Shown here: piece by piece, positions 601-33,698 of the stretch
How the letters are laid out: the number at the start of each line of letters is the position of its first letter
Numbering within the stretch: the stretch's first letter is position 1
Assembly (NCBI GenBank): GCA_902614915.1
Contig: CACMMX010000017.1
Coordinates: forward strand, 1 to 33,698
From: an uncultured Cryomorphaceae bacterium
Lineage (GTDB): Bacteria > Bacteroidota > Bacteroidia > Flavobacteriales > Schleiferiaceae
DNA length: 33,698 nucleotides
Reading direction: 5' to 3'
Notes under the pieces: generated by a model
What the model was told of the DNA's origin: nothing
The model's database searches: none
What the model saw: only the letters and a program-made list of their open reading frames with translations
Made by a program: the position numbers and the translations under genes

Positions 601-1881
601 TTAAGTCCATGTATTAACAAATTCACCTTTAGGGTCATAGCGTTCCGCTTGAATTTTGGTATTGAATTTTCTAAACGGTCGAGGATCATTGCCTCTCCCG
701 GCATTATATAACCAATTACCATAATTCGAGGCGGGATCATAATCAATAAGATGCTGCTCAAAGTATGCCGCACCAGCGCGCCAATCGAGCCCCATATCAT
801 GAATGAGATAGGATGCAACATTTTGACGACCACGATTGCTCATGAATCCGGTTTGAGCAAGTTCTTTCATGTTGGAGTCAACAAGCTTATCCCCTGTATT
901 TCCTGAGGTCCATTTTTCAAATGCACGTTCATTGAAGCCTTGTTTAATCGGTTTTTCCGGCTTTAATCCGTGAGCAACGAATAAGTCCTTCCCGTGTTTT
1001 AATGCTATCCATTGAAAATATTCACGCCACAATAATTCAAAAAATAACCAATAGGTGCTATCGTTACTTTCTATTTCGTCTTCAAATCTATTTAGTTCGC
1101 TTTTTATTTGTCTAGCGCTCAAACAGCCCAATGAAAGAAATGGCGAGAATTTTGAACTGAATCCTCTGCCCAATAAACCGTTTCTAGTTTGTTTGTATTC
1201 CAAAATCTTTTTGCTTTCCCAGAAATAGTAGTCTAATTCTTCCCAAGCGCTTAAATACCCCCCTTTAAAGGGTACGGCTGATCGGTCATCCTTATAGATT
1301 TCAGGTTTGATAAGCGAAATACCCCTCATATTAAAATCACTTGGTTCAAAGGGAGATATATCTGCTTCTCCAATTGGTAACCGAACACTAGAATATTTTT
1401 CAACTTTTCCTCTAAATCGAGAAAAAACCATGGGTATTTCATCTAGAGCAAATGGCAGGTCATTTTGAAGGAACAAGGTTTTTTCGTTGTAGAAATTAAT
1501 CTTAATACCTTTAAGCTTTCCCCAATGCTCTAAAGTAGTTTCTTGCTTTACCTCATTAAAGGCGAATTCTTTAGGTCCAATAATCGCTATTGCACCTATT
1601 TCAATCGCTAAAGTTCGTATGGTTTGTACAGCATCTTTCTCGCGTAATACAATGAGTTCGCTATCATAAGCCATCAATCCCTTGTTTAAATCTATGAGGC
1701 TATCTATTAAAAATGCCTCACGATATTTCCCGCGGGGACCTTTAGCCCATTTTTGGTTATGTTGGGAACCTTCATCTATAAATAACGGAATAACCAAGTC
1801 ATAATTGGTGTAAGCTTCAACAACTGGCCAATTATCGCTAAGCCGAAGATTATTTCTGAACCAAAGAATACAAATCTTCAT
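601..1881 (-). CDS. DASH-type cryptochrome/photolyase
   Basis: A 426-residue FAD protein of the cryptochrome/photolyase superfamily. It has an N-terminal antenna domain starting WFRNNLRLSDN and a C-terminal FAD domain. DASH hallmarks are FMSNRGRQNVASYLI (about 347-360), the segment LDWRAGAAYFEQHLIDYDP (about 365-383), NYGNWLYNAG (386-395), GNDPRPFRKFN and the ending YDPKGEFVNTW. Residues needed for flavin chemistry are present: E282 and W285 (FELLWRE), W367, N386 and W390. DASH proteins repair cyclobutane dimers in single-stranded or looped DNA and may also signal. Length is at the short end for the family. The gene overlaps the upstream (6-4) photolyase by one base (TAATG), which implies translational coupling, and a PLP decarboxylase follows 14 bases on. 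Confidence 0.93.
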   Translation of the reverse strand: MKICILWFRNNLRLSDNWPVVEAYTNYDLVIPLFIDEGSQHNQKWAKGPRGKYREAFLIDSLIDLNKGLMAYDSELIVLREKDAVQTIRTLAIEIGAIAIIGPKEFAFNEVKQETTLEHWGKLKGIKINFYNEKTLFLQNDLPFALDEIPMVFSRFRGKVEKYSSVRLPIGEADISPFEPSDFNMRGISLIKPEIYKDDRSAVPFKGGYLSAWEELDYYFWESKKILEYKQTRNGLLGRGFSSKFSPFLSLGCLSARQIKSELNRFEDEIESNDSTYWLFFELLWREYFQWIALKHGKDLFVAHGLKPEKPIKQGFNERAFEKWTSGNTGDKLVDSNMKELAQTGFMSNRGRQNVASYLIHDMGLDWRAGAAYFEQHLIDYDPASNYGNWLYNAGRGNDPRPFRKFNTKIQAERYDPKGEFVNTWT

Positions 1882-3410
1882 TATAATGCCTCTAAATTTT
1901 GCATAATATATTGTGCTCTTTCTCTGAGCTCTTCTTTCTGCGCGTCCTTCATTTTTTCGTAGGTGCGATAAACCATTCCTAACCTAAAATTATTGAACAA
2001 CTTTTTTCTGTGCCTATCAAAGAAATCCCAATACAGTGCATTAAATGGACAACTATCTGAGTCGGTTTTTGTTTTGTAGTTATAGGAGCAATTTTGGCAA
2101 TAATCTCCCATCTTGTTGATGTAATTCGCGGAGGAGACGTAGGGTTTTGTCGCTATCCATCCTCCATCAGCATATTGACTCATACCACGAGTGTTAGTGA
2201 TTTCTACCCATTGAAATGCGTCAATATAAATTCCTAAAAACCAGAAATCAAGTTGGTCAGGGTGCACACCTGCCAACAAAGAAAAGTTACCAATAACCAT
2301 TAATCTTTGAATGTGATGGGCATAGGCATATTTAAGGCTTTGCTTAATACTGTGCTCCATACATTTCATTTTAGTCTCGCCATTCCAAAACCAATCGGGA
2401 AGTTTTTTCGAATGCTCAAAGAAGTTTTCTTTACTAAATTTGGGCATTCTCTCCCAATAAATTCCTCGCATATATTCTCTCCAACCTAAAATCTGTCTTA
2501 TGAATCCTTCGGCTGCATTTATAGGTATATGTTCGTTTTCTTCAAAGTAGGACTCAGCTCTTCGACATATAGTATACGGGTCCAACATTTTCGTATTTAG
2601 GGCAAATGAAATTCGACTGTGGTATAAGGACCAATCATTCACTGTCATCGCATCCTGATAATCTCCAAAAAACTTAAATTGATGCTTCAGCCAATAATCA
2701 AAAATGGCTAGGGCTTGATTTGTATTAGTAGGCCAAAAAAATGTTTTTGAATCCCCTATAGATCCAATTGTGGGAAGATTTGCCTTAATAATTTCTTGAT
2801 ATACTTCTGTAACATCTGTACTTGGTAAATAGGGTTTTTGTAATAGATGATCCTTCGGAATTTTATTTCTATTTAGGTTGTCGAAATTCCATTTTCCACC
2901 CTTAGGTTGATTTCCTTGCATTAGAATCCCTGTCTTTTTGCGAAGCTTTCTGTAAAAACTTTCCATTAGATATGTCTTCTTGCCTGCAAATGTTTCGTGA
3001 AAATCTTCTGGAGTAGATATAAAATGTTCCGTTGATGAAAATGAAACATGGTAACCTCTTGTTCTCAGAAGTTTAAGATTATTGAGCATTCTAAGTTCAT
3101 CCGGATGCTGGAAATATAAATTCTGCACACCTTTTTTTTGGCATATAGAATCTAAAATGTCAATGAGTTCAATTTCTTTCGACTCAAGAATTTTATGATA
3201 AATTACGTTATGCCCCTGCTTTTTTAGGGTATTAGCAAATTGTCTCATAGAATAAAATATGCCTACAACTTTTTGAATGTGATGAGGTGCGTAAGAGCCT
3301 TCACCCTTGCATTCAATGAATACGTAAGTAATTTCAGAATTGATGACTTTAAACCAGCTATGATTGGGATTTAGCTGATCACCAAGAATAATTCGAAAGG
3401 ATTTAACCAT
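1881..3410 (-). CDS. Iron-sulfur bacterial (6-4) photolyase / cryptochrome (FeS-BCP)
   Basis: A 509-residue deoxyribodipyrimidine photolyase-related protein that repairs (6-4) photoproducts using FAD, a lumazine-type antenna and a [4Fe-4S] cluster. The N-terminus FRIILGDQLNPNHSWF is typical. The four cluster cysteines are visible at C350 (KMKCMEH), C438 and C441 (YCQNC), and C454 (DSCPFNALYWDFF). From memory of the family, these positions coincide with those in Agrobacterium PhrB. The paired histidines H365/H366 (AYAHHIQRL) needed for (6-4) repair are kept, as is the region TNTRGMSQYADGGW. It is the first gene of the minus-strand photolyase operon; the DASH gene starts inside its stop codon. 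The start at 3410 lies about 40 bases downstream of a strong hairpin terminator, so its promoter should lie in that short gap. Confidence 0.94.
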   Translation of the reverse strand: MVKSFRIILGDQLNPNHSWFKVINSEITYVFIECKGEGSYAPHHIQKVVGIFYSMRQFANTLKKQGHNVIYHKILESKEIELIDILDSICQKKGVQNLYFQHPDELRMLNNLKLLRTRGYHVSFSSTEHFISTPEDFHETFAGKKTYLMESFYRKLRKKTGILMQGNQPKGGKWNFDNLNRNKIPKDHLLQKPYLPSTDVTEVYQEIIKANLPTIGSIGDSKTFFWPTNTNQALAIFDYWLKHQFKFFGDYQDAMTVNDWSLYHSRISFALNTKMLDPYTICRRAESYFEENEHIPINAAEGFIRQILGWREYMRGIYWERMPKFSKENFFEHSKKLPDWFWNGETKMKCMEHSIKQSLKYAYAHHIQRLMVIGNFSLLAGVHPDQLDFWFLGIYIDAFQWVEITNTRGMSQYADGGWIATKPYVSSANYINKMGDYCQNCSYNYKTKTDSDSCPFNALYWDFFDRHRKKLFNNFRLGMVYRTYEKMKDAQKEELRERAQYIMQNLEAL

Positions 3411-9182: not shown

Positions 9183-9650
9183 ATGAATGTATTAGAAATC
9201 TTAATTGTGTTTCTAACATTTCTCTGTATGGAGGGTGTTGCATGGCTTGCCCATCGCTATCTTATGCATGGATTTTTATGGTTTTTGCATAGAGATCATC
9301 ATGTCAAAACCCCCGGCATCCTGGAAAAAAATGATACTTTTTTTTTGATTTTTGCGGCTCCTTCGTGGCTATGTATAATTCTAGGTGGTGCTCATTCAAG
9401 TGGATATTCTGTTTCAATAGGATTAGGAATTGCCTTGTATGGATTGGCATATGCCATTGTTCATGAGGTTTTTATTCATCAAAGACTTCCTTTCCTTCGT
9501 TTGACAAAATACACCTATTGGGAAGCGGTTAGATTAGCCCACAAAATGCACCACAGCCACCTAGATAAAGATGATGGTGAAAATTTTGGAATGTTATGGG
9601 TTCATCCCAAATATATCAGACATGTTCGTAATTTAAGAAAGAACGACTGA
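9183..9650 (+). CDS. crtZ: Beta-carotene hydroxylase
   Basis: A 155-residue di-iron membrane hydroxylase that adds the 3-hydroxyl to beta-ionone rings of carotenoids. All histidine clusters of the family are present: H24/H29 (AHRYLMHG), H36/H39/H40 (LHRDHH), H94/H99 (HEVFIHQ) and H120/H123/H124 (HKMHHSH). Hydrophobic segments lie around 1-20, 52-70 and 76-95. The length is typical of bacterial CrtZ. It is the first gene of a carotenoid run, with lycopene cyclase starting 6 bases after its stop, so the ring made by the cyclase would be the substrate here. Confidence 0.93.
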   Translation: MNVLEILIVFLTFLCMEGVAWLAHRYLMHGFLWFLHRDHHVKTPGILEKNDTFFLIFAAPSWLCIILGGAHSSGYSVSIGLGIALYGLAYAIVHEVFIHQRLPFLRLTKYTYWEAVRLAHKMHHSHLDKDDGENFGMLWVHPKYIRHVRNLRKND

Positions 9651-9656
9651 TTGTGT

Positions 9657-10367
9657 ATGCTTGAAACAAAATGGTTATATATCATTCTTAACTTATTTAC
9701 CATTAGTATTCCTTTATTAAGGAGTTTTGAAAGCAGAGTGGGCTTTTATAAAAGATTTCCTTCACTATTCAAGTCAATCTTAATAGTCAGTGGTGTTTTT
9801 CTTATTTGGGATGTTTACTTCACCCATCGAAAAATATGGGGGTTTACGCCACAATATGTTTCTGGAATTGATTTCTTTGGACTACCACTTGGGGAATATT
9901 TGTTTTTTCTAACGGTCCCATACGCATGTATTTTTATATACGAATGTTTAAAGTTTTTTAAACCAAAAGGTATTTTGAGTTCCAAAACAACTAGAGTTAT
10001 TAGTTTGGTATTGATGATTTTTTCATTCATAATGGCATTTTATGGATTATTCGAGAATAAATGGTATACGTCATCTACATTTTTGTTTCTAGGTATAGCA
10101 ATCTCTCTTGTGCAATTTCTTGTAGAATCAAATTGGCTTCACAGATTTTATGAAAGCTACTTTATCGCTCTGCTGCCTTTTTTTATAAAGAATGGAATTT
10201 TGACTGGTATGTTAATTGATTCTCAAGTAGTTTGGTATAACGATCAACATAATATTGGTTTTAGATTAGGTACAATACCTTTTGAAGATATCTTTTATGG
10301 TATGCTTCTTATTTTAGGGACACTGTACTTTTATGAAAATTTCGAATCAGAAAAGGAAGAAAGATAG
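9657..10367 (+). CDS. Lycopene cyclase (fused CrtYcd type)
   Basis: A membrane protein of 236 residues containing two tandem lycopene-cyclase domains, the fused form of the heterodimeric CrtYc/CrtYd enzyme typical of Bacteroidota. The first repeat carries PLGEYLFF (77-84) and the second IPFEDIFYG (207-215), the acidic motifs of this cyclase class. About six or seven hydrophobic segments are visible. I take the ATG at 9657 (MLETKW), 6 bases after the crtZ stop with an A/G-rich stretch upstream; an in-frame TTG at 9651 directly abuts the crtZ stop and is less likely. In this pathway it would close one or both ends of lycopene to beta rings. Confidence 0.9.
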   Translation: MLETKWLYIILNLFTISIPLLRSFESRVGFYKRFPSLFKSILIVSGVFLIWDVYFTHRKIWGFTPQYVSGIDFFGLPLGEYLFFLTVPYACIFIYECLKFFKPKGILSSKTTRVISLVLMIFSFIMAFYGLFENKWYTSSTFLFLGIAISLVQFLVESNWLHRFYESYFIALLPFFIKNGILTGMLIDSQVVWYNDQHNIGFRLGTIPFEDIFYGMLLILGTLYFYENFESEKEER

Positions 10368-10521
10368 AATTACAAATTCTTATTGACTTTATTAATCATA
10401 TCCTTTACAAAGAATTTATAATTTTATTTTAACGGTAATTAAAATATCCTCATTAATCATCAATTGGGTAGAGTTCGAGAATTGGCGATTATCTTATTAA
10501 TGGAAAAAACATATTTATAAC

Positions 10522-11235
10522 ATGCTTCTTGAGTCAATCTTTAGTTTATCAGGTGTCGTATCACTTTGTACGCTTACATTACTGGAGATCGTCCTGGGAA
10601 TAGATAATATTGTTTTTATTTCTCTAATTACGCAGGATTTAGATGAATCAAAACAGCCAATGGCGCGGAGGCTCGGATTGATTTTAGCATTAGTATTTCG
10701 TGTTATCATGTTATTATGTATAACCTGGATAATAGGTTTAACAACACCATTGTTTTCTATTTTAGAGCATTCTGTCAGCGGTCGTGATGCTATACTTTTT
10801 ATAGGTGGTGTTTTCTTATTGTATAAAGCCTCTGTAGAGATTGTGCATAAAACCGAAGGCAAAAAGAAAAAAGAAAACACAAAGGCTGATAGTGTTGTAA
10901 ACGCAATAATTCAAATAGGATTACTTGATATAGTTTTTAGTTTTGATAGCGTACTTACTGCTGTTGGGATGACAGATGAAATTGAGATAATGATTATGGC
11001 TGTGGTTATATCGATGCTTGTAATGCTTTCTTTTGCTGAATCAATTAGTGCCTATATTAAAAAACATATTTCTCTTCAAATATTAGCTTTATCTTTTCTA
11101 GTTTTAATAGGCACAGTTCTTATTGCGGAAAGCGCCCATATAGAGATTCCAAAGCCCTATATATATTGTTCTGTTGGTTTTGCCCTTATGGTTCAAATCT
11201 TGAGTATACGAGCTAGAAGAAAAACCAATAAATAA
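10522..11235 (+). CDS. TerC-family integral membrane protein
   Basis: A 237-residue polytopic membrane protein of the TerC family. It has the paired half motifs ELVLGIDN-like (EIVLGIDNIVFISL, residues 22-35, with acidic E22 and D28) and GLLDIVFSFDSVLTAVGM in the second half, separated by a charged loop (KTEGKKKKENTK). Family members are linked to metal ion (manganese) efflux or to metal loading of exported proteins; the original tellurium link is indirect. It lies in the middle of the carotenoid genes, in the same direction, but with 154-base gaps before it, and the gap holds no obvious gene. It converges with the unknown gene at 11237 with a single base between the stop codons. Confidence 0.9.
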   Translation: MLLESIFSLSGVVSLCTLTLLEIVLGIDNIVFISLITQDLDESKQPMARRLGLILALVFRVIMLLCITWIIGLTTPLFSILEHSVSGRDAILFIGGVFLLYKASVEIVHKTEGKKKKENTKADSVVNAIIQIGLLDIVFSFDSVLTAVGMTDEIEIMIMAVVISMLVMLSFAESISAYIKKHISLQILALSFLVLIGTVLIAESAHIEIPKPYIYCSVGFALMVQILSIRARRKTNK

Positions 11236-11236
11236 A

Positions 11237-11812
11237 TTATCGAAATTTACCGATTAAGCGGAAATAATCTTTCAAGGTTATTTCATTGATTTTCGTGTTT
11301 GCCTTCGTTCCGAAAAGAAACGACGAGTCATTATCGGATATTGAATAAGGAATTTCATGATTAAGACTTCGCTTGAATATTTCTGACGCAACATTGTAGT
11401 GATCTTTATAGTCCATGCGATTAATTGATATACGCATTAGGGTATCGCCAATAGTTATAGAGATAGTATCCGCGAAAAAAGATGAATTGCTGGGTTCTAA
11501 TACGATATATGCACAATCCTCTTTCCAGTGGTTGATAATGGCGAAGTTAAAATAGTTAAATGAAGTATCTTTTAGACTCTTAGAAATGCGATGTACCCTA
11601 AAGCCTGCTGTGTTTAAGTCCTCGTTTTCAATTGTCCGGTAATGTAATATTCGAGTATTATTAAAAAATATCTCGTCACTTTCTAAAGTTTTAAAATCCG
11701 GTTCTTTGCTGTCGTCAATTAATTGAGGTTTGTAAGGCCATATAATGCTCAATAATAACAACCCTAAAATAAAACCTATTGCCGATTTGTAATACATATT
11801 CATGACATACAA
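11237..11812 (-). CDS. Hypothetical membrane-anchored protein
   Basis: A 191-residue protein with one N-terminal hydrophobic segment (about 9-25, SAIGFILGLLLLSIIW), probably an uncleaved anchor since no clear signal peptidase site follows. The remainder is a soluble, mixed alpha/beta-looking domain with no motif I recognise. Alternative starts at the fourth and sixth residues (both ATG) would keep the anchor intact. It is divergent from the CrtD-type desaturase gene with a 49-base gap, and convergent with the TerC gene. Its place inside the carotenoid block is suggestive but says nothing firm about function. Confidence 0.7.
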   Translation of the reverse strand: MYVMNMYYKSAIGFILGLLLLSIIWPYKPQLIDDSKEPDFKTLESDEIFFNNTRILHYRTIENEDLNTAGFRVHRISKSLKDTSFNYFNFAIINHWKEDCAYIVLEPSNSSFFADTISITIGDTLMRISINRMDYKDHYNVASEIFKRSLNHEIPYSISDNDSSFLFGTKANTKINEITLKDYFRLIGKFR

Positions 11813-11861
11813 TCAACAAATGTGACGGGAGGATGTTTAAGTACGAAGAAGTAAATCATTT

Positions 11862-13352
11862 ATGATTCAGAAAAAGGTAGCTGTTGTTGGCTCAGGTATT
11901 GCAGGATTAGCCGCAGCCATAAGGTTAGCGAACTCAGGAATTAGGGTGGACTTATTTGAGAAGAATTCTTACACAGGAGGTAAAATGACAGTTTATGAGC
12001 AAGACGGATATCGTTTTGATGCAGGCCCCTCCTTGTTTACTTTGCCTCATTTGGTGGATGATATTTTTGAGTCATGCGGCAAAAATCCAAGAAACTATTT
12101 TCATTATAGACAGCTAGATAACGCTTGCCAGTATTTTTGGCAAAACGGTAAAAAGATGCTTTTAAAAGCGGATTACGGCGAGAACATAAAGGCAATCAAG
12201 ACTAATTTTGGTCATTCTGCAGCGCAATCGGCGAGGAAATATTTTAATGATTCAAAAGAAAAATACGAGCTTACCGAACCCTTTTTTCTTCAGCAAAGCC
12301 TTCACCGGTTCAAGACTTTCCTCGATTTTAGAGTGATAAAGGTTATTGCTGCGATTCCTAGGCTTAAATTATTTCGTAGTCTCAACAATATAAATGAGCA
12401 ATATTTTAAAGACAAGGAATTAATTCAACTCTTCAATAGATATGCTACTTATAACGGTTCTTCACCCTATCAGACACCTGGAATAATGCAAATGATTAAT
12501 CACCTTGAACACGGTGAAGGTACTTTCTTACCTATTGGAGGAATGCATAAAATTGCCCAGAGTCTAACTCTACTCGCAGAGGAAATTGGGGTTCGAATAC
12601 ACTTAAATCAAAAAGTAGAAGAGGTGTATTCCCAGGGTAAGGTGATTAATTCACTTTCCATAGGCGGTAAAATGAAAATCTTTGATTCAATCATTCTGAA
12701 TTCAGATGTTCATTTTGCATACGAGCACTTACTAGATGAAAAAATAAAGCGACCAAAAAAAACTCTTGCTCAAGCCCCTAGTTCAAGTGCTGTAATTTTC
12801 TATTGGGGAATAAATCGCAAGTTTGATGAATTGGATTTACACAACATTTTCTTTTCTAAAGATTATAAAAATGAATTTGAACAAATAGCCAAAAACAACA
12901 ACTTTTGGGTAGACCCTACTATTTATGTAAATATTACCAGTAAAGTGGAGTTGAAAGATGCACCTGAAGGTTGTGAGAATTGGTTTGTAATGGTTAATGT
13001 GCCACCAAATCAAGGTCAAGATTGGAAAAAAATAACGAATAAGTTGAGAGATAAGATTCTCGATAGACTTTCTATGGAGTTGAATGCGAATTTAAGGCAT
13101 CATTTGGTGACAGAGCGCATTTTAAATCCGATAATGATTGAAGATTTGACCTCAAGTAAAGGTGGTTCACTGTACGGAACGAGTTCAAATAATTCGTTGG
13201 CTGCTTTTATTCGTCATCCCAATAAAAAGCTTAAAGGATACAGAGGTCTTTATTTCTGTGGAGGTAGTGCACATCCTGGAGGGGGTATTCCATTGTGCTT
13301 ACTAAGTGGTAAATTAGCCGCGAATTGGTGTTTAGAGGATATTTATAATTAA
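11862..13352 (+). CDS. crtD: Carotenoid desaturase, CrtD (1-hydroxycarotenoid 3,4-desaturase) type
   Basis: A 496-residue FAD-dependent amine-oxidase-fold protein. The dinucleotide-binding motif is VVGSGIAGLAAAIRLANSG (8-26), followed by GGKMTVYEQDGYRFDAGPSL and, at the C-terminus, GLYFCGGSAHPGGGIPLC, the conserved CrtI-family ending. The wording RFDAGPSLFTLP with VDDIF, rather than FDMGPSW, matches the CrtD branch of Flavobacteria more than phytoene desaturase CrtI. The neighbour CruF, which makes the 1-hydroxy substrate, supports this. CrtD introduces the 3,4 double bond on the acyclic, hydroxylated end. The GTG start of CruF follows after 7 bases. A CrtI-type phytoene or zeta-carotene desaturase is the main alternative. 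Confidence 0.85.
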   Translation: MIQKKVAVVGSGIAGLAAAIRLANSGIRVDLFEKNSYTGGKMTVYEQDGYRFDAGPSLFTLPHLVDDIFESCGKNPRNYFHYRQLDNACQYFWQNGKKMLLKADYGENIKAIKTNFGHSAAQSARKYFNDSKEKYELTEPFFLQQSLHRFKTFLDFRVIKVIAAIPRLKLFRSLNNINEQYFKDKELIQLFNRYATYNGSSPYQTPGIMQMINHLEHGEGTFLPIGGMHKIAQSLTLLAEEIGVRIHLNQKVEEVYSQGKVINSLSIGGKMKIFDSIILNSDVHFAYEHLLDEKIKRPKKTLAQAPSSSAVIFYWGINRKFDELDLHNIFFSKDYKNEFEQIAKNNNFWVDPTIYVNITSKVELKDAPEGCENWFVMVNVPPNQGQDWKKITNKLRDKILDRLSMELNANLRHHLVTERILNPIMIEDLTSSKGGSLYGTSSNNSLAAFIRHPNKKLKGYRGLYFCGGSAHPGGGIPLCLLSGKLAANWCLEDIYN

Positions 13353-13359
13353 AAAGAAA

Positions 13360-13977
13360 GTGCAAAAATTAGCGCGTGCACATGGCGGCTGGATACTTTT
13401 GTTAATTCATTTTATCGGAGTCTTATTGTTAAGCAGTAAGTGGAGTGATTCCTTTGTCTTCCTTACACCAATTAACCTATCAATTATTGTTACATTATTC
13501 CTTTTATCTTCTGAACTCCCTAAATCGATTATCTTTTATTTAATGCCGGCTCTATTGGGATGGTTGATTGAAGTACTTGGGACCAATACAGGTTTTCCTT
13601 TTGGGGAATATACATACAGCGATATACTTGGCCCTGGTCTATTCGGCACGCCAATTATGATAGGTTTGCTATGGTGGGTACTCATTCGTTCAGCTTATGA
13701 TTTAATGTCCTACGTTACTTCGTCAATAGTCATTAAAAGCATTTTGACGGGTTTATCAATGGTTAGTTTGGATTTTCTTATAGAACCCGTAGCCATTGAA
13801 CTAAATTTTTGGCATTGGAAAAAGCAAATAGTACCAATTGAAAATTACTTGGCTTGGTTCTTATGCAGCTCACTATTTGCAGGTTTAACTGATAAAGGAT
13901 CAGTTAAAAATCCCTTAAGTCATTGGATTTGGATTGTAATGGTTTTATTTTTTGGTGCTCTTAATGCAATTGTCTGA
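13360..13977 (+). CDS. cruF: Carotenoid 1,2-hydratase, CruF family
   Basis: A 205-residue polytopic membrane protein of the CruF/bisanhydrobacterioruberin-hydratase family. Characteristic motifs are EVLGTNTGFPFGEYTY (71-86), GTPIMIGLLWW and DFLIEPVA (138-145), and about six hydrophobic segments are seen. It hydrates the psi end of an acyclic or monocyclic carotene to give the 1-hydroxy group. The start is GTG at 13360, placed 7 bases after the crtD stop behind an AAAAAGAAA stretch; no in-frame ATG lies nearby. It ends the carotenoid block and is followed, after 42 bases, by a gene on the other strand. Confidence 0.87.
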   Translation: MQKLARAHGGWILLLIHFIGVLLLSSKWSDSFVFLTPINLSIIVTLFLLSSELPKSIIFYLMPALLGWLIEVLGTNTGFPFGEYTYSDILGPGLFGTPIMIGLLWWVLIRSAYDLMSYVTSSIVIKSILTGLSMVSLDFLIEPVAIELNFWHWKKQIVPIENYLAWFLCSSLFAGLTDKGSVKNPLSHWIWIVMVLFFGALNAIV

Positions 13978-14019
13978 AAGTCGATTAAAACAATCTTTTT
14001 TCATTACGAATGGCGTGGT

Positions 14020-14784
14020 TTAATTATAGTTTTTTATCGCCTCCTGTCGCTTTTTGTTTCTCTCGAACTCCTCGTAGCACTCTAGAAGAGAAATTAGGAA
14101 TTGATAATCATTCAACGTCCTTATTTGAGTATCAGAGTATTTGCAATAGAACATAAAAGCCTCCATTTCTTCCCTTGGAATCCCAGTTAATTCTTCAAGG
14201 CTTTCCCTATTGTTTCCTTCTTCTAATTTTTGTCGATAATAATCTTCTCGTTGTAATCTGCGTAATGCAGCCAATTGTTTCGGACGCTTTCCGAAACTGT
14301 AGTACAACAAATCTAGAGGATTAGCTAGGGTTGGAGCCACTGCTTGAGGAATCCTAATATCATCATTAGAAGGTACACGAGGCTTCGATTTAGGCATGGT
14401 TCTGGAGTTGTTGGAGGTAATTGCATAGATGCTAACTTCATCTAATAGGTAATTGCGTCGGGATAATTTTATTGTCTTAGCTTTTTTGATGTTCGAAATG
14501 ACGTTAGAATCGATTTCCAAATACTTAAATTGATAGCCAACATTCGAAAATACAATAGTATCTCCTTTCGCAACTGAAATTTCAAAATAGCCTATACCAT
14601 TGGTCACGGTACCTGTAAAGGTCTTATTATTTACGACATAGGAATTGGGTAATGTAAAAGATGAGTCTTTATCTAAAACAGTACCTTTCAGTATGTAAAT
14701 TTGAGCAAGGGCTTCATTACTCACCAGCAGTATTAGGAGCAATTTGAATAAAATATTTATAAATCGTTTAATTCTATTCCACAT
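14020..14784 (-). CDS. Exported carboxypeptidase-regulatory-like protein
   Basis: A 254-residue protein with a signal peptide ending SNEALAQ. A carboxypeptidase-D regulatory-like beta sandwich follows (ILKGTVLDKDSSFTLPN, GTVTNGIGYFEISVAKGD, TIVFSNVGYQFKYLEI, then LLDEVSIY), the module that in Bacteroidota usually heads TonB-dependent receptors. Here no barrel follows; instead there is a charged helical tail (RPKQLAALRRLQREDYYR onward). I take the ATG at 14784, since an in-frame start 75 bases upstream would lie in ettA and remove the signal peptide from the N-terminus. The ATG overlaps the ettA ATG on the other strand in the tetramer CATG. It converges with cruF. Function unknown, envelope location likely. 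Confidence 0.75.
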   Translation of the reverse strand: MWNRIKRFINILFKLLLILLVSNEALAQIYILKGTVLDKDSSFTLPNSYVVNNKTFTGTVTNGIGYFEISVAKGDTIVFSNVGYQFKYLEIDSNVISNIKKAKTIKLSRRNYLLDEVSIYAITSNNSRTMPKSKPRVPSNDDIRIPQAVAPTLANPLDLLYYSFGKRPKQLAALRRLQREDYYRQKLEEGNNRESLEELTGIPREEMEAFMFYCKYSDTQIRTLNDYQFLISLLECYEEFERNKKRQEAIKNYN

Positions 14785-16474
14785 GTCGGACGACGGTAAA
14801 AAAGTCATTTTTTCAATGTCAAAAGTGAGCAAAATATTGCCGCACAATAACAAGGCCATTTTAAAAGATATTTATCTCTCTTTTTTCTATGGAGCCAAAA
14901 TAGGTATACTTGGTTTAAATGGTTCAGGTAAATCGACTCTATTAAAAATTATAGCTGGTGTAGAAGAAACATATCAAGGAGATGTCGTCTTTACACCTGG
15001 ATTGAATATAGGTTATTTAGAGCAAGAGCCGACATTAGAGGCAGGAAAAACGGTTTTGGATATTGTAAAAGAGGGTGCTGCTGAGACTGTTGCTATTCTA
15101 CAAGAATATAATAATATCAATGAAATGTTAGGACTACCTGAGGTGTATGAAAACCCAGACAAAATGGAAGAACTCATGTCCAAGCAAGCAGAACTTCAAG
15201 ACAATATTGATGCTTCCAACGCATGGGAGTTAGATACTATGTTGAATCGCGCAATGGATGCACTGAATTGTCCACCTTCAGAACAGCTTGTTGATGAGTT
15301 AAGTGGAGGGGAAGCTCGTCGGGTAGCCCTCTGCCGTCTTTTGATACAACAGCCAGATGTACTTCTTTTGGATGAACCAACCAATCATTTAGATGCTGAA
15401 AGTATACTATGGCTGGAGCAACATTTACAGCGGTATAAGGGAACTGTTATTGCCGTCACGCATGACAGGTACTTTTTGGATAATGTTGCGGGCTGGATTC
15501 TTGAATTAGATAGAGGAGAGGGTATACCTTGGAAAGGTAATTATTCCTCTTGGCTAGATCAAAAAACAAAGCGTCTTGCTAAAGAGGAGAAACAAGCTTC
15601 CAAACGCCGGAAAACTCTAGAACGTGAATTAGAATGGGTTCGAATGAATCCTAAGGGTAGACAGAGTAAGAATAAGGCACGTTTGAGCAACTACGAAAAT
15701 TTGCTTTCCCAGGAACAGAAAGAAAAAGAAAGTAATCTAGAAATATTTATTCCCGCAGGTCCTCGCCTAGGGACAAGTGTAATTGAAGCTAAGGGTGTAA
15801 AAAAAGCTTTTGGTGAAAAACTCTTATATGATTCCTTAAATTTTAAACTTCCTCCAGCCGGTATTGTCGGGATAATAGGCCCTAACGGAGCAGGTAAGAC
15901 GACAATTTTCAAAATGATCATGAATCAATTATCTCCGGATGAAGGTTCATTTGAAGTAGGTGAAACAGTAAAAATTACCTATGTAGATCAAGGTCATGAA
16001 AAGATGGACTTACAAAAGTCAATTTTTGAAATTATTGGTGATGGTACAGAAGAAGTTTTGCTTGGTGAGCAGCGCGTTAATGCTAGAGCATACTTGAGTA
16101 GATTTAACTTTTCTGGGGGAGATCAAAGTAAAAAAGTAGGTGTTCTTTCTGGGGGTGAAAGGAATCGGCTTCATCTAGCGATGGCACTCAAAGATGGTGG
16201 TAATGTATTGCTTCTAGATGAGCCTACTAATGATTTAGATATTAATACATTAAGAGCATTAGAAGAAGCGCTTGAAAACTTTGCGGGTTGTGCAGTAATT
16301 ATCTCGCATGATCGCTGGTTTCTTGATCGTGTCTGTACTCATATTTTAGCATTCGAGGGTGATTCAGAAGTTTATTCCTTTGAAGGCACTTTTTCTGAAT
16401 ATGAGCAGAATAAATCAAATAGACTTGGTAATACAGAACCCAAAAGATTTAAGTACAAGAAATTGATGAAATAG
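14783..16474 (+). CDS. ettA: Energy-dependent translational throttle protein EttA (ABC-F)
   Basis: A soluble ABC-F protein of 564 residues with two ATPase domains. The first has the P-loop GLNGSGKST (44-52), LSGGEARRVALCRLL and LLLDEPTNHLDAES; the second has GPNGAGKTT, LSGGERNRLHLAMAL and LLLDEPTNDLD. Long stretches match E. coli EttA as I remember it, including DRYFLDNVAGWILELDRGEG, GNYSSWL, ELEWVR, GRQSKNKARL and the ending EPKRFKYKKL. EttA binds the ribosomal E site and gates the first translation step by energy status. Start at 14783 (MSDDGKK); an upstream in-frame ATG at 14744 would add residues absent in the family. Its start codon overlaps that of the divergent gene by two bases. Confidence 0.95.
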   Translation: MSDDGKKVIFSMSKVSKILPHNNKAILKDIYLSFFYGAKIGILGLNGSGKSTLLKIIAGVEETYQGDVVFTPGLNIGYLEQEPTLEAGKTVLDIVKEGAAETVAILQEYNNINEMLGLPEVYENPDKMEELMSKQAELQDNIDASNAWELDTMLNRAMDALNCPPSEQLVDELSGGEARRVALCRLLIQQPDVLLLDEPTNHLDAESILWLEQHLQRYKGTVIAVTHDRYFLDNVAGWILELDRGEGIPWKGNYSSWLDQKTKRLAKEEKQASKRRKTLERELEWVRMNPKGRQSKNKARLSNYENLLSQEQKEKESNLEIFIPAGPRLGTSVIEAKGVKKAFGEKLLYDSLNFKLPPAGIVGIIGPNGAGKTTIFKMIMNQLSPDEGSFEVGETVKITYVDQGHEKMDLQKSIFEIIGDGTEEVLLGEQRVNARAYLSRFNFSGGDQSKKVGVLSGGERNRLHLAMALKDGGNVLLLDEPTNDLDINTLRALEEALENFAGCAVIISHDRWFLDRVCTHILAFEGDSEVYSFEGTFSEYEQNKSNRLGNTEPKRFKYKKLMK

Positions 16475-16510
16475 CGGATAATTATTTAAAAAAATTATAA
16501 ATTAACGAGA

Positions 16511-16530
16511 CTCTCAAATAGTTTTGAGAG
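16511..16530 (+). terminator. Hairpin downstream of ettA (possible terminator)
   Basis: CTCTCAAA and TTTGAGAG form a perfect 8-base stem with a TAGT loop, 36 bases after the ettA stop. Only CTTCATTG follows, so the T-tract is lacking and intrinsic termination is uncertain. No other structure is evident in the 102-base gap before the acyl-CoA dehydrogenase gene. Confidence 0.4.
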
Positions 16531-16576
16531 CTTCATTGTAAATTGAGGCATACCTATCAATTAAGATAACTAAATT

Positions 16577-17728
16577 ATGAGAATCACCATGAGTGATGAG
16601 CGTCAGGAAACGCTTGAACTAATCCGTCAATCTGCGAAAGAATTTGCCCGAGCAAAAATTCGTCCTAATATGATGGAATGGGATGAAAATCAACACTTTC
16701 CAATTGAAGTATTTAAAGAATTAGGCCAGCTAGGATTTATGGGTCTTTTGGTACCTGAACGATATGGTGGCGCTGGATTGGGTTACCAAGAATATATTAC
16801 TGTAATCGATGAAATTTCACAGGTATGTGGCTCTATAGGCCTTTCATTAGCGGCACACAATAGCTTATGCACTGGACACATTCTTCAGTTTGGAAACGAG
16901 AGTCAAAAAGAAAAATGGTTACCAAAGTTAGCTACCGCTGAATGGATTGGTTCATGGGGGCTAACTGAGACAGGCACTGGATCTGATGCCGGTGGAATGG
17001 ATACGACGGCAAAGCTAGATGGAGATTATTATGTTTTGAATGGTTCTAAAAATTGGATTACGCATGCTATATCATCAAATATCTCTGTGGTTATTGCTCG
17101 GACGGGAGAAAAAGGAGAATCAAGGGGGATGACCGCTTTTGCTATAGAAAAAGGAACTCCAGGTTTTACAGCTGGTCAAAAGGAAAATAAATTAGGAATG
17201 CGTGCCTCTGAAACAGCTTGCTTGTTCTTTGATAATTGCAGAATCCCGAAAGAAAATATTTTAGGAAATATTGGTGAGGGTTTTATTCAAGCTATGAAGA
17301 TTTTAGATGGAGGAAGGATTTCAATTGCGGCATTATCTCTCGGAATCGCAAGAGGAGCAATGCTTTCAGCTATTGAATACGCAGATAATCGGGAGCAGTT
17401 CGGTAAAAAAATACGTTCTTTTCAAGGAATTAGTTTTAAGCTTGCTGAAATGTCTACGAAAGTTTACGCAGCTGAATTGATGACAAGGCATGCAGGTGCA
17501 TTAAAAGAGGAGGGGAAGCCAATGACGCAAGAGAGTGCAATGTGTAAATTATATGCTTCTGAAATTTCTACTGAAATTGCTAGTGAAGCAGTCCAAGTGT
17601 TTGGGGGTTACGGCTACACGAAAGATTATCCAGTTGAAAAATTTTATCGCGATTGTAAACTTTGTACCATAGGTGAGGGGACTTCGGAAATCCAAAAAAT
17701 TGTAATTTCAAGAAATCTATATCGTTGA
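16577..17728 (+). CDS. Acyl-CoA dehydrogenase (short/branched-chain type)
   Basis: A 383-residue FAD flavoprotein that oxidises acyl-CoA at the alpha-beta bond and passes electrons to ETF. The N-terminal helical domain is followed by [17 protein letters not shown] (flavin and substrate contacts), [17 protein letters not shown], and the C-terminal helical domain with [12 protein letters not shown] and [21 protein letters not shown]. The catalytic glutamate is E367 in GEGTSEIQ. Length and motifs fit short-chain or butyryl/isovaleryl-type enzymes; substrate chain length cannot be read. A second ATG lies four codons in (16589) and may be the true start. It stands alone on this strand, with ettA 102 bases before. 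The stop is one base from the stop of the convergent DUF2256 gene. Confidence 0.93.
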
Positions 17729-17729
17729 G

Positions 17730-17858
17730 TTAATTTTTGGAACACCTTTTACTACAATACTTTACATCTGGCCAATTTTTTTTCCATTTTTTGCGCCATG
17801 TAAAGGATCTACCGCAGGCAACACAAACTTTTTCTGGTAAATAAGGTTTTCTATGCAT
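17730..17858 (-). CDS. DUF2256 zinc-ribbon small protein
   Basis: A 42-residue protein starting [12 protein letters not shown]. It carries the DUF2256 signature [18 protein letters not shown] followed by YCSKRC, a CxxC ... CxxxC set expected to bind zinc. The open frame extends upstream, but the family begins here and the upstream part overlaps the divergent neighbour. Function is unknown. My recollection is that DUF2256 genes are often found near photolyase/cryptochrome genes and TIGR03643 genes; here the TIGR03643-type gene is divergent, 46 bases away, while the photolyase homologues are 13 to 14 kb away. It converges with the acyl-CoA dehydrogenase gene with one base between stops. Confidence 0.85.
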
Positions 17859-17904
17859 CAAATAATGAACAAGGCAATAAATGAAAGGTTCCCGTATTGT
17901 AAAA

Positions 17905-18174
17905 ATGTTTCGAGAAGACGAGATTGACCGTATTGTTGAAATGGCTTGGGAGGATAGAACACCATTTGATGCCATCACTGCACAATTCGGATTGACAGAA
18001 TCTGAAATTATTGTTTTCATGAGGCATCAAATGAAACTGAGTTCTTGGCGTCATTGGAGGGCACGTGTTCAAGGTCGAAGCACAAAACATAGAGCTCGTC
18101 GAGGATTCGAATTAGGTCGCCATCGAAGCTCGAGACAAAGACATATTTCTAACAATAAGATATCAAAACGATAA
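17905..18174 (+). CDS. TIGR03643-type small basic protein
   Basis: A protein of 89 residues from the ATG at 17905 ([24 protein letters not shown]). An in-frame ATG at 17881 would add eight residues and cannot be excluded. The core reads as the TIGR03643 family: [38 protein letters not shown] and the basic motif [11 protein letters not shown]. The first half looks like a helix-turn-helix, with a sigma-like or recruiting role conceivable. The C-terminal tail is extended, very rich in R, K, H and S, and may bind nucleic acid. It is divergent from the DUF2256 gene. No biochemical role is known to me; association with photolyase genes is recalled, not shown here. Confidence 0.8.
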
Positions 18175-30541: not shown

Positions 30542-31990
30542 TTACTTGCTTGGGCTAATGTGTTTGCAGATAATTCTTTTAGATTCCTTTTTGGTAAATG
30601 CTTCTTGCTTTTTTGCATAAAGTATATGGCTAGCACGCTTTCGGGCTTCCTCTAAAGATACTATAGGCGCTTTCGGGTAGCTTCCTAAATGAATTTCCTG
30701 CATAGCCAATTCCATGGGTGTCATTTTCCACGGTTCATGTAAATAAGATGCTGGTAGCTGAAATAATTCAGGAATCCATTGCCGTATAAATTTTCCTTGA
30801 GGATCATGTTCTTTACTTTGTTTCACAGGATTATAGATACGAATGGTATTTACTCCAGTATACCCACTTTGCATTTGGAATTGTGCATAATGAATTCCAG
30901 GTTCAAAGTCAGTAAACAAGGAGGCTAAGTAGTCCGCACCTGGTTTCCAAGGAAGCCATAGATATTGACTGTAAAAACTCACAATCATTGCGCGCATCCT
31001 AAAGTTGAGATACCCAGTTGCAGTAAGGCAGCGCATACAAGCATCCACTAGTGGTACTCCGGTTCTCCCATCCTTCCAACGATCAAAAAAAACCTGATTC
31101 CAAGGCTTTTGCTCATCAATGGAAGAATACGCTCTGTTTATTGTTACATACTCATACTCCCATTCGCTTTCAAATTTCTGAATGAAGTGTGCTTGCCATC
31201 TTAAACGGTCAGCAAATGCTTTTATGTTTCTTTTAGATCCGGGAATATCCGTTTTCTTCATAAGTTGATACAACTGTCTAACGCTTATGTTTCCCCAGGC
31301 TAAATGTGGAGATATTCTACTGCAGCCCTTTCTAGAGGCTTGCGGTTTGGAAATACTGCGGGCATATTGAACAATCCTCTCATTGAGAAAGCTGCGAATT
31401 ACCTTGTGAGCGCGTTGTTCTCCTCCTTTTTGAAAAAACGGATGGGGATCAAGTGGTTTAGAAAACTGCTTAGCAATACCCTCTCCGTTTAAAGCGTTTG
31501 TAGTAATAAGATTAAGATCGGTATTCAGAAGGGGCTTACTTGCATCAATGTACCAGTTTTTAATCCAATCATTTCTATTTCTAATGCCTCGTTGCACCCC
31601 ATTTGCATCTGATTGTATCCACTCAATCTGTTGTGATTGTAAGTATTTATTTACGGCTATATCACGATCATAGGTGTATCTGATACCCGTTTCTTTGTGA
31701 CTAAGGACGCGGACCACATCATACTTGGCAATCAATAACTGGAAGAACTTTACGGCTTCGGAGTGGAAGAAGTAGACTGCTTTTTTCCCAACTTGATAAT
31801 TCATGTCTTCAACAGAATCCGCAATGAATCTTAAATGACGCTCATCATATTGGGGAAGATTAAAAAGAGAAGGTTCGTAAAGAGTGAAATACAAGGTAGG
31901 AATCCCGAAATAGATACTTTGATGAACGGGAAGGTGATCAGACCAACGCAAATCACGCTTGAACCAAACAAGTTGAATTTTTGGCTTCAT
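30542..31990 (-). CDS. Divergent photolyase/cryptochrome homologue with altered active site
   Basis: A 482-residue protein with the fold pattern of the cryptochrome/photolyase superfamily: [14 protein letters not shown] at the start, [18 protein letters not shown], the FAD region [18 protein letters not shown], and the ending [19 protein letters not shown]. Aligned by eye to E. coli photolyase, the dimer-contacting residues E274, N341 and M345 are R262, F330 and A334. The FAD-N5 asparagine N378 is H367 and the FAD-proximal tryptophan W382 is F371, while W277, R342, R344, W306 and W359 have counterparts. So it is probably flavin-binding but unlikely to repair cyclobutane dimers. A basic tail follows ([13 protein letters not shown] onward). 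Its start overlaps the flavin reductase stop by 4 bases (ATGA). Confidence 0.85.
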
Positions 31991-32616
31991 TCAAAGTTAT
32001 AATTTTCTGTTTTCGGATAGGGCTGGTGTTTCCCCTTAGTATGGAGAGAGGTATAATGTTGCAGCCCAATGGCAAGAACGGGACTTTCCTGAAAAAGTAT
32101 TTGTCCTTTATCGTTGATATGAAGTTTTTCACTCCATCTTAATTGTTTAATTGAACCGACCGTGTAAATACATTGATTATTTAAGGTGAATTCTTCAATA
32201 TATTCTATTTCAATCGCATAAATAAAGTCTTTGGGTATAGGGTGGTCCCAACCTTCAAAGTTCTGAATAGGTTCGTCAAGTAATTCTAGCTCAAAAATAT
32301 CCTTAGGGGCATTGACACTGACTTCATGAACCGTATCACATTTATGGAAAGGCATGCAGATTAGTGTCATAATTCCACTATTCCGATAATTTTCCAGGGT
32401 ATGACTATACGCACTAGGGGGTCTGAAGAGCACGCTTAATTGTGGTGGATGCGCACCAACATGAGTAATATTTGAAAGCGTTGTAGCATTCCATTGTCCA
32501 TGGCCGCCCGTAATACCTATAAATGCTGTTCGAACACCAGATAAACTATTGATTAGCGCAGTACGATAACGCTTATCTAGGTCAATAATTTGTTCCCGAT
32601 TTAAAGAAGTATCCAT
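31987..32616 (-). CDS. Flavin reductase-like (FMN-binding split barrel) protein
   Basis: A 209-residue cytoplasmic protein with the split-barrel pattern of NAD(P)H:flavin reductases. It opens with [19 protein letters not shown], then [21 protein letters not shown] and the flavin-contacting [17 protein letters not shown], followed by a core ending in [10 protein letters not shown]. Such proteins supply reduced FMN or FAD or bind flavin themselves. It lies between the SDR (2-base gap) and the photolyase homologue (ATGA overlap). That placement suggests it reduces or loads the flavin of the photolyase homologue; this is inference. Pyridoxamine oxidase-like or other flavin-binding split-barrel roles remain possible. 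Confidence 0.83.
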
Positions 32617-32618
32617 GC

Positions 32619-33305
32619 TTAAAGGACACTTTGACCGCCATCAATGTGAATAATTTGTCCCGTCATCCAAGAAGTTTTATCGCCCAACAAAAATGCCGTC
32701 ATTTCTGCAATGTCAGCTGGCGCTCCAATTCTTTTCATGGGGTTGTTATTCCCTAATACTGTTTTCTTTTCTGGAGTACTCAAAACCTTTGCAGCAAGAG
32801 GAGTATCTGTTAATGAGGGTGCTATACAATTAATTCGCGCTTTAGGTGCCCATTCGGAGGCAATAGCTCTAGTAAGACCTTCGATTGCTCCTTTGGATGC
32901 ACTTACAGTAGCGTGGAAAGGCATACCGCGCTGAACGGCAACTGTTGAATACAGCACAACGGAAGGAATACTCTCTGTATTAAAGTTTTTATAGGCGGCC
33001 TGAAGTGCCTTCACTGCGCCAATGACTTGTAGTTGATAATCTGATTCAAAGATTTCTGGTTTAGAACCTTTAAACGGTTTTAGTTGGATGGATCCTACGC
33101 TGTAGACGAGTCCATCAATGTTTTCAGGCATTCGATCTTCCCAATCGTCGCTGAGGACATCAAATTCTTCCCAATCAATGGAATGAGCAGGTCCCTCATA
33201 CGGTGTTCTACTAAAAACAATGACCTCATTACCTTCTGCTGCAAGTAATTCTGCAGTTTCTTTTCCAATTCCCTTGCTACCTCCTATTATTACGTATCTC
33301 TTCAT
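32619..33305 (-). CDS. Short-chain dehydrogenase/reductase family protein with atypical active site
   Basis: A 228-residue Rossmann-fold protein. The nucleotide-binding motif is IIGGSKGIG (6-14); GTVSAS-type and ARINCIAPSLTDTPL (156-170) and the ending WMTGQIIHIDGGQS are all family hallmarks. The usual catalytic YxxxK is changed: in ATVSASKG the tyrosine position is V134 (codon GTA), the lysine is K138, and the serine position is T121 next to S120. The start is taken at 33305 (MKRYVIIGGS); an upstream in-frame ATG would add 34 residues not expected before the Rossmann fold. It is the first gene of the operon with the flavin reductase and photolyase homologue. It may bind NAD(P)H without classic dehydrogenase activity. 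Confidence 0.85.
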   Translation of the reverse strand: MKRYVIIGGSKGIGKETAELLAAEGNEVIVFSRTPYEGPAHSIDWEEFDVLSDDWEDRMPENIDGLVYSVGSIQLKPFKGSKPEIFESDYQLQVIGAVKALQAAYKNFNTESIPSVVLYSTVAVQRGMPFHATVSASKGAIEGLTRAIASEWAPKARINCIAPSLTDTPLAAKVLSTPEKKTVLGNNNPMKRIGAPADIAEMTAFLLGDKTSWMTGQIIHIDGGQSVL

Positions 33306-33362
33306 TATAGTATGTTGTTCTAAGATTCTAAACGCAATTTTTAAAGACGGGTTCAGATATTG

Positions 33363-33395: not shown

Positions 33396-33411
33396 AGAAT
33401 AAAACACTGAT

Positions 33412-33698
33412 ATGATTCAAAAGTTAAAAATCGGTTCTTCACCGCTTACATATGCTCAATATGCTGAAATAGCCTCTGGAAATGTTAAAATCGATTTAGA
33501 TTTTGATGCGGCAGAACGCATTCGGAAGTCACGCGAATTTCTAAAAAGTCACACGCAAACTAGTAAAGCACCTATCTACGGAGTGAATACTGGTTTTGGT
33601 GCATTGTGCAATGTTGCGGTAGATGCTGCCAATCTTAGTAAACTTCAAACAAATTTGGTCCGTTCGCATGCGTGTGGTGCCGGATCAGAAATCAGTCC
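33412..33698 (+). CDS. hutH: Histidine ammonia-lyase family protein, N-terminal part (truncated by window edge)
   Basis: My own translation from the ATG at 33412 gives 95 residues in an open frame to the window edge. The start MIQKLKIGSSPLTYAQYAEI is followed by PIYGVNTGFGALCN (Y56 corresponds to the catalytic tyrosine of the family) and LQTNLVRSHACGAG. These identify an aromatic amino acid lyase, most likely histidine ammonia-lyase, which deaminates histidine to urocanate. The MIO-forming Ala-Ser-Gly triad lies beyond the edge, so tyrosine or phenylalanine ammonia-lyase is not excluded. It is divergent from the SDR operon. Confidence 0.85.
   Translation, partial: MIQKLKIGSSPLTYAQYAEIASGNVKIDLDFDAAERIRKSREFLKSHTQTSKAPIYGVNTGFGALCNVAVDAANLSKLQTNLVRSHACGAGSEIS

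Follow-up and report, generated by a model that had tools for sequence, protein, structure and literature searches.

A conserved pair of short-chain dehydrogenase-like and flavin-reductase-like genes, joined to a photolyase subfamily without the proximal tryptophan in an uncultured Cryomorphaceae bacterium

What could keep a dehydrogenase-fold protein, a flavin-reductase-like protein and a photolyase homologue together in one compact run of genes? The question is raised by contig CACMMX010000017.1 of an uncultured Cryomorphaceae bacterium (GenBank assembly GCA_902614915.1), of which positions 1 to 33,698 were analyzed (the window, 33,698 nucleotides in full). Three genes lie on its minus strand, all open reading frames (ORFs) over their stated extent and transcribed in the order SDR, FLR, PHR: a 228-amino-acid (aa) protein of the short-chain dehydrogenase/reductase (SDR) fold at 32619..33305, a 209-aa split-barrel flavin-reductase-like protein (FLR) at 31987..32616, and a 482-aa photolyase homologue (PHR) at 30542..31990. 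We observe that SDR and FLR are conserved as a pair whose gene neighborhoods are those of light repair, carotenoids and pterins, and that here the pair is joined to a photolyase subfamily from which the proximal Trp is missing.

As a preliminary description of the window had reported, a gap of 2 bases separates the end of SDR (32619) from the start of FLR (32616), and the stop of FLR overlaps the start of PHR in the 4 bases ATGA (31987..31990, minus strand; TCAT/ATGA as read from the sequence), which suggests translational coupling. The trio looks like one translationally coupled operon, in keeping with the earlier view, drawn from gap and overlap, that the genes are made together; it is presumably co-transcribed and may be light induced. 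The start of SDR is the ATG at 33305, which fits the family alignment, with an upstream GTG at 33407 as a possible alternative.

A photolyase subfamily without the proximal tryptophan

PHR is a member of the photolyase/cryptochrome superfamily by Pfam cut-offs, with matches above the cut-off to both FAD_binding_7 (PF03441; 9.9e-62, 208.4 bits) and DNA_photolyase (PF00875; 1.3e-8, 35.4 bits). Its scores lie well below the cut-offs of the class-specific NCBIfam models for class I cyclobutane pyrimidine dimer photolyases (PRK10674; 131.9 bits, cut-off 506), CRY-DASH (TIGR02765; 126 bits, cut-off 317) and plant-type cryptochromes (TIGR02766; 150.4 bits, cut-off 603.9), and its best PDB sequence match is plant cryptochrome 1 (2.7e-38). 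Judged by sequence, PHR is a distinct photolyase subfamily that falls into no named NCBIfam class and is called type B in this analysis. Photolyase classes A, B and C were assigned by PF03441 score and match length in the order-level counts and shuffles below, and by comparison with reference proteins for the mapped sets in which residues were read.

In an alignment of 89 distinct type B rows, the window included, against Escherichia coli PhrB, whose residue positions we take to be those of the literature numbering, E274 is replaced by R, N341 by F, N378 by H and W384 by M in each of the 89 rows. The proximal Trp (W382) is likewise replaced throughout (F in 85, L in 2, I in 1, V in 1), a Trp at the W306 position is seen in a single row, and W359 is kept in 88. 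A second type B set, 23 proteins taken from the gene-order maps, carries F (15) or L (8) at W382. All 29 class-I-like type A proteins of the same loci have N378, W359 and W382; E274 is present in 28, the remaining one being unreadable at that position, and W306 is present in 27. The window protein resembles PhrB in its two domains (PF00875 and PF03441) and in keeping the equivalents of W359, W277, R342 and D372, and differs from it in Arg262 for E274, His367 for N378, Phe371 for W382, M for W384, F for N341 and the loss of W306. PHR belongs, in short, to a coherent subfamily without the proximal Trp. The reduced flavin of photolyases in cells is usually credited to photoreduction through the Trp chain, and a PHR without the canonical photoreduction residues leaves room for a dedicated flavin reductase.

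SDR lacks the catalytic tyrosine and FLR has a split-barrel fold

SDR, recognized by ORF, Pfam, alignment and structural model, has a classical-SDR fold (Pfam adh_short_C2, 3.2e-39), and its AlphaFold2 model (mean predicted local distance difference test score [pLDDT], 94.5) finds generic classical SDRs as fold matches. It keeps the Rossmann glycine motif GGSKGIG and the active-site Lys138 of classical SDRs and has lost their catalytic Tyr. Throughout a subfamily of 78 distinct proteins (profile score of at least 288 bits, the next protein scoring 194), Lys138 and His131 are invariant and the Tyr of the YxxxK motif is replaced, by I in 40, V in 34 (V134 in the window) and T in 4. The earlier observation that two of the three active sites are non-standard thus extends to whole subfamilies, with the SDR Tyr lost in 78/78 proteins and the proximal Trp of PHR in 89/89 rows.

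With the sepiapterin and pteridine reductases, SDR shares its fold and, in relatives, a position after the genes for 6-pyruvoyl tetrahydropterin synthase (PTPS) and GTP cyclohydrolase I (folE). Unlike those enzymes, the window protein is without the catalytic Tyr, and its 83 bits against a pteridine reductase model are well under the scores of the best generic SDR models. Identification as a sepiapterin reductase by sequence or fold was considered and dropped, as the searches give generic SDRs; no sepiapterin reductase is among the PDB matches listed for SDR in either search. In the SDR tree, the window copy sits on a long stem and its place within its family is not settled.

FLR is recognized by ORF, Pfam, PDB sequence match and model. 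Its match to Flavin_Reduct (PF01613; 1.1e-4, 22.8 bits) stays under the 27-bit cut-off, which a relative (L145) exceeds at 55.6 bits, and the split-barrel protein 3fge is the sole PDB sequence match at E ≤ 0.1 (4.2e-14). A fold search with its AlphaFold2 model (mean pLDDT, 90.8) returns 3fge first, followed by FMN-binding proteins and flavin reductases, and places FLR in the split-barrel fold. FLR resembles the split-barrel flavin reductases and FMN-binding proteins (3fge, 1eje, flavoredoxin and HpaC) in fold and 3fge also in sequence, and differs from them in an identity of 26% to 3fge and 11 to 18% to the other matches listed. The window copy is divergent within its own family too, with 19 to 30% identity to most of 30 relatives and 39 to 69% to the three closest; 12 residues are invariant among 31 sequences.

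Among plasmid relatives, three Pseudoalteromonas loci carry an SDR-flavin reductase pair and no photolyase among the genes listed over 16 kb. In the two that were aligned (L119 and L120), the partner of the FLR-family gene is an SDR of another type, with the Tyr present, and FLR pairing seems, on these alignments, to exist with two SDR subfamilies. A small gene family (F45), flavin-reductase-like by eye, lies directly 5' of FLR at four loci (L140, L160, L161 and L162).

The conserved unit is the SDR-FLR pair

From 88 confirmed loci with PHR relatives, 80 were kept, belonging by record title to Bacteroidota, Vibrio, Pseudoalteromonas, alphaproteobacteria and others. Six of the 80 have the gene order SDR-FLR-PHR (L003, L004, L005, L006, L028 from Phaeocystidibacter luteus, and L081), and an FLR match lies somewhere on the locus in 13, a count made by single-sequence phmmer, which misses distant FLR, on loci many of which are cut by contig ends. 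On three Vibrio plasmids, an annotated flavin reductase follows PHR after 76 to 77 bp; among the genes listed on 12 kb, two of these plasmids have no annotated SDR, and the third has one about 3 kb further on that does not match the window SDR at 1e-3.

A sample of 148 genomes of the order has FLR in 58, PF03441 in 94 and SDR (E ≤ 1e-38) in 69. Counting neighbors no more than 4 kb away, FLR has an SDR match in 21 of the 58 genomes and a photolyase in at least 25 (one or more of them on its own strand in every case), and the SDR match has a photolyase in at least 33 of the 69. SDR and FLR stand with type B in at least 3 of the 148 genomes, with type A in at least 10 (one of which has a DASH-class gene in range as well), with the DASH class alone in at least 2, and in 6 without a photolyase in range among the matches listed. 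FLR also lies beside a type B photolyase without SDR in at least 7 of the 58 FLR-bearing genomes. In the window's own family (20 sampled genomes), FLR is within 64 bp of an SDR match in 15 of 16 cases, and the pair adjoins a type A photolyase, a type B photolyase, or CRY-DASH plus DPRP.

The exact trio is lineage-limited, and the wider unit is the SDR-FLR pair. A general three-gene module, as the preliminary description had envisaged, was rejected since the exact trio is too rare (6/80 type B loci, at least 3/148 order genomes), its homologues being found mostly apart; of the co-occurrence and adjacency that it had proposed to count, the association of SDR with FLR and of type B with FLR stood and that of the exact trio did not. 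Nor is the SDR-FLR pair specific to type B, as it also adjoins class-I-type photolyases with an intact Trp triad. At three loci (L130, L125 and L135), genes for a type B photolyase, DPRP and CRY-DASH occur with FLR in one cluster.

Carotenoid and pterin neighborhoods

Gene-order maps were drawn for 40 regions, chosen for holding SDR, FLR or photolyase genes. Of the 14 maps from the window's family, eight (L132, L144, L145, L146, L147, L148, L150 and L151) show the run MerR/B12, extracytoplasmic function (ECF) sigma factor, crtI, crtB, idi, PTPS, folE, SDR, FLR, with a photolyase next in six of them; the run recurs in L152 and, plus one extra gene, in L138 of another family. Every gene of the L145 run was confirmed by Pfam, and its PTPS is closer to rat 6-pyruvoyl tetrahydropterin synthase (1.2e-34) than to entries named QueD (1.3e-9). 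PTPS-folE-SDR runs recur outside the order (L177, L178, L180 and L210, and L208 with one gene between). Speaking of a three-gene system was therefore too narrow, given this larger carotenoid, pterin and MerR-B12 neighborhood in related genera and other orders.

The sister genome G145, of the window's genus, carries the MerR-B12 regulator, as does the larger operon of relatives, and its run, an operon of the ancestral type, is intact save for SDR and FLR, with folE adjoining a type A photolyase (L171). Its SDR-FLR pair lies on another contig and, like that of the window, beside a type B photolyase (L139). Most simply read, this means that the pair changed its photolyase partner; as the SDR tree does not settle the window copy, the direction of this move is taken from gene order. 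The assembled part of the window genome (86% complete) has no type A photolyase.

Co-occurrence across the phylum and within families

In a sample of 296 genomes of the phylum, searched by profile (FLR at 227 bits or more, the next score being 93; SDR at 288 or more, the next being 213), FLR is found in 47 genomes, SDR in 57 and both in 33 (Fisher, 1e-17, uncorrected for relatedness). Surroundings were taken for all 57 SDR and 47 FLR genes, the FLR of G296 and G407 not being recovered by the gene caller, which leaves 45; neighbors were sought within 5 kb, with photolyase types A, B, DASH and DPRP counted and some stretches stopping at contig ends. SDR has a photolyase-superfamily gene in range in 27/57 cases, folE or PTPS in 11/57 and FLR in 11/57, company that points at pterin chemistry. 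FLR has a photolyase-superfamily gene in range in 17/45, SDR in 11/45 and folE or PTPS in 4/45. Photolyase linkage of SDR and FLR is frequent, not obligatory. A higher-scoring PTPS form, present in 53 genomes, tracks SDR (37/53 versus 20/243 in unshuffled counts), an association that follows taxonomy.

To set relatedness aside down to the family level, labels were permuted within families among the 94 photolyase-bearing order genomes (20,000 shuffles). FLR and SDR co-occur in 47 genomes against 37.6 expected, a number reached in none of the 20,000 shuffles (P = 5e-5). Type B co-occurs with FLR in 32 genomes against 25.1 expected (P = 0.0005), FLR being present in 32 of the 37 genomes with type B versus 21 of the 57 photolyase-bearing genomes without it, and with SDR in 33 against 27.7 (P = 0.003). 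For the CRY-DASH class and FLR, at least 25 are observed among the DASH matches listed against 18.7 expected (P = 0.00025). Relatedness above the family level does not explain these four associations (FLR-SDR, B-FLR, B-SDR and DASH-FLR); relatedness within families remains in the test. Association of the three families beyond chance is borne out by these shuffles and by the repeated clustering in 148 genomes.

Relation to known light-response systems

In Pseudomonas, the LitR/CarH regulons are light inducible; LitR controls phrB, which shares an operon with genes for an SDR and a FAD oxidoreductase, as well as ufaM, cryB and folE/folM/folX (PMC9758184). The likeness to the window lies in photolyase genes that share an operon or regulon with SDR, GTP cyclohydrolase I and pterin genes under a regulator of the MerR-B12 family, as described in the available text of that paper, the two SDRs being compared by name only. 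The systems differ in that the term "flavin reductase" is absent from that available text and that no MerR-B12 gene is seen in the window genome. Within the same phylum, a photolyase gene-proximity cluster is enriched in proteorhodopsin-bearing marine Flavobacteriia (PMC5932025); it is similar in its chromosomal clustering of photolyase and photolyase-related genes, and different in that "flavin", "short-chain" and "dehydrogenase" do not appear in the main text as available. Dokdonia has a light-regulated cryptochrome and photolyase (PMC9040609, in the part available). Further papers describe photolyase classes and operons and leave the trio arrangement unmentioned in their accessible portions (PMC9649867, PMC9426592, PMC9498864 and PMC7560933).

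The SDR-FLR-photolyase arrangement is not named in the open-access literature searched. The 2008 genome paper on Polaribacter MED152 is said to mention a photolyase cluster.

Possible roles of the pair and competing explanations

The reading that we favor makes the trio a photo-repair operon in which SDR, linked to pterins, and FLR, acting on flavin, provide reduced cofactors or keep them reduced; we regard it as evenly poised between right and wrong. That the SDR-FLR pair serves photoreactivation or the same light response is probable. As to the individual roles, SDR may well be a pterin enzyme, although we stop a little short of even chances, and a supply of reduced flavin from FLR to the photolyase is put forward tentatively. 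The substrates of FLR and SDR, which of the two reduces what, and DNA repair by PHR are points that we infer.

Under the photo-repair reading, PHR would be the flavin photoenzyme of type B, and SDR and FLR would be an accessory pair that keeps cofactors reduced for photolyases generally. FLR would reduce free flavin, or the FAD of the photolyase, with NAD(P)H, and the loss of the proximal Trp would make this most important in type B. SDR, with its NAD(P)-binding motif kept and its Tyr lost, would act on a reduced pterin from GTP cyclohydrolase I and PTPS, a pterin that may serve as antenna or electron-transfer cofactor, and the operon would make a light enzyme plus the means to keep that enzyme charged. 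A stronger version appears rather unlikely: type B would be a photoenzyme class that has abandoned Trp-chain photoreduction and relies on a flavin reductase of its own to charge it in the dark, a Tyr-less SDR would make or hold a dedicated reduced pterin, and SDR-FLR would be a mobile cofactor-maturation pair attachable to different photolyase classes. Enzyme-driven flavin reduction becomes directly testable with a photolyase-like subfamily that has no proximal Trp and tends to be accompanied by a flavin reductase, a Tyr-less SDR beside GTP cyclohydrolase I and PTPS is a concrete lead on which pterin these bacteria may produce in responding to light, and a pair that stands beside several photolyase classes is a photolyase accessory worth naming.

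Several observations weigh against the photo-repair reading. No photolyase-superfamily gene lies within 5 kb of 30/57 SDR and 28/45 FLR loci, and at five loci (L172, L173, L174 [a 4.2-kb contig], L175 and L176) an SDR-FLR pair stands without one detected in that range. The pair also occurs beside type A photolyases, whose Trp triad is intact, and the association of type A with FLR is barely beyond the shuffles (48 observed versus 45.6 expected, P = 0.04) and that with SDR not beyond them (58 versus 56.7, P = 0.22). A shared sunlit lifestyle could be the source of the co-occurrence, seeing that type B and DASH, too, are found together more than the shuffles allow (0.0002, among the DASH matches listed). 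On the pterin side, the fold search with SDR returns generic SDRs, an SDR without the Tyr would not be expected to work as a classical carbonyl reductase, and the presence of PTPS was discarded as a test, since 280 of the 296 phylum genomes have a homologue and it carries little information. In the window genome, 86% complete, a single folE and a single PTPS were detected, both away from the trio and the PTPS with the lower-scoring form; a MerR-B12 gene was not seen.

It is also conceivable, if somewhat unlikely, that the genes are united by regulation only, SDR and FLR being light- or oxidative-stress enzymes in the redox chemistry of carotenoids, quinones or lipids that belong to one light regulon with photolyases and do not act on them. 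The neighbors crtI, crtB, idi and the MerR-B12 regulator argue for this, as do SDR-FLR pairs with no photolyase nearby and the LitR regulons, which in the available text mix phrB, SDR, FAD oxidoreductase, furan fatty acid and pterin genes (PMC9758184). Against it, the window's genus has SDR-FLR with a different photolyase and away from crt genes, and FLR stands beside type B without SDR both in the order genomes counted above and in Vibrio.

The relay that the preliminary description had proposed, one dedicated complex or chain that leads from NAD(P)H, sensed or delivered by SDR, through flavin reduction by FLR to the use of that flavin by PHR in light, draws on the gene overlap and tight spacing, the replacement of the proximal Trp in all 89 type B rows, and the co-occurrence of type B and FLR within families. 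We nevertheless consider it very unlikely. The exact trio is rare (at least 3 of the 148 order genomes), SDR-FLR pairs with other photolyase classes and also occurs alone, and the Vibrio plasmids have PHR-FLR with no annotated SDR among the genes listed or with an unmatched one about 3 kb off. Flavin reductases of the split-barrel fold bind NAD(P) themselves, as the titles of the PDB fold matches of FLR also indicate; the SDR step would therefore be superfluous, delivery of NAD(P)H by SDR finds no support, and SDR is unlikely to be needed to feed FLR. That FLR is instead a CobR-like corrinoid reductase by which B12 in a light sensor of the CarH type would be kept adenosylated is highly improbable, for although CobR (3cb0) is among its fold matches and a MerR-B12 gene heads the larger operon, CobR comes at rank 18, under several flavin reductases and FMN-binding proteins, and the incomplete window genome shows no MerR-B12 gene.

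Promoter candidate and other features of the window

Upstream of SDR lies a weak candidate promoter element, GAACC-N15-CGTTTAGAATCTTA (33321..33354, minus strand), whose looser scan pattern matches the window 3 times. The form GAACC-N15-(C/G)GTTTAGAATCTTAGAA is kept in 6/6 aligned sequences (the window and 5 close relatives, with L006 left out) and resembles what we take to be the consensus of an extracytoplasmic-sigma promoter. A promoter common to the trio and the carotenoid/pterin operon was considered and rejected, GAACC-N15-CGTT preceding 2 of 42 mapped SDR-family genes, both from close relatives of the window; the scan depends on called starts and missed the element that L003 has, which makes this a weak negative.

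The trio is convergent with a response-regulator gene ending at 30537 and divergent from a histidine-ammonia-lyase-like gene (33412-33698, plus strand), and the same gene family adjoins SDR-FLR in another genus of the window's family (L134 and L142). A second photolyase pair (601-3410, minus strand) consists of a CRY-DASH-like gene (604-1881; best PDB match CRY-DASH, 1e-94) beside a photolyase-related DPRP gene (1884-3410). Between the two groups lie a His-rich membrane-type protein without a Pfam match (9183-9650), which by its motif we presume to be a carotene hydroxylase, a lycopene-cyclase match (9651-10367), a crtI-like gene (11862-13352; 48% to a mapped crtI-family gene) and a TIGR03643-like gene (17881-18174). 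This stretch (9183-18174), which shares the window with both photolyase groups, is a possible photoprotection region.

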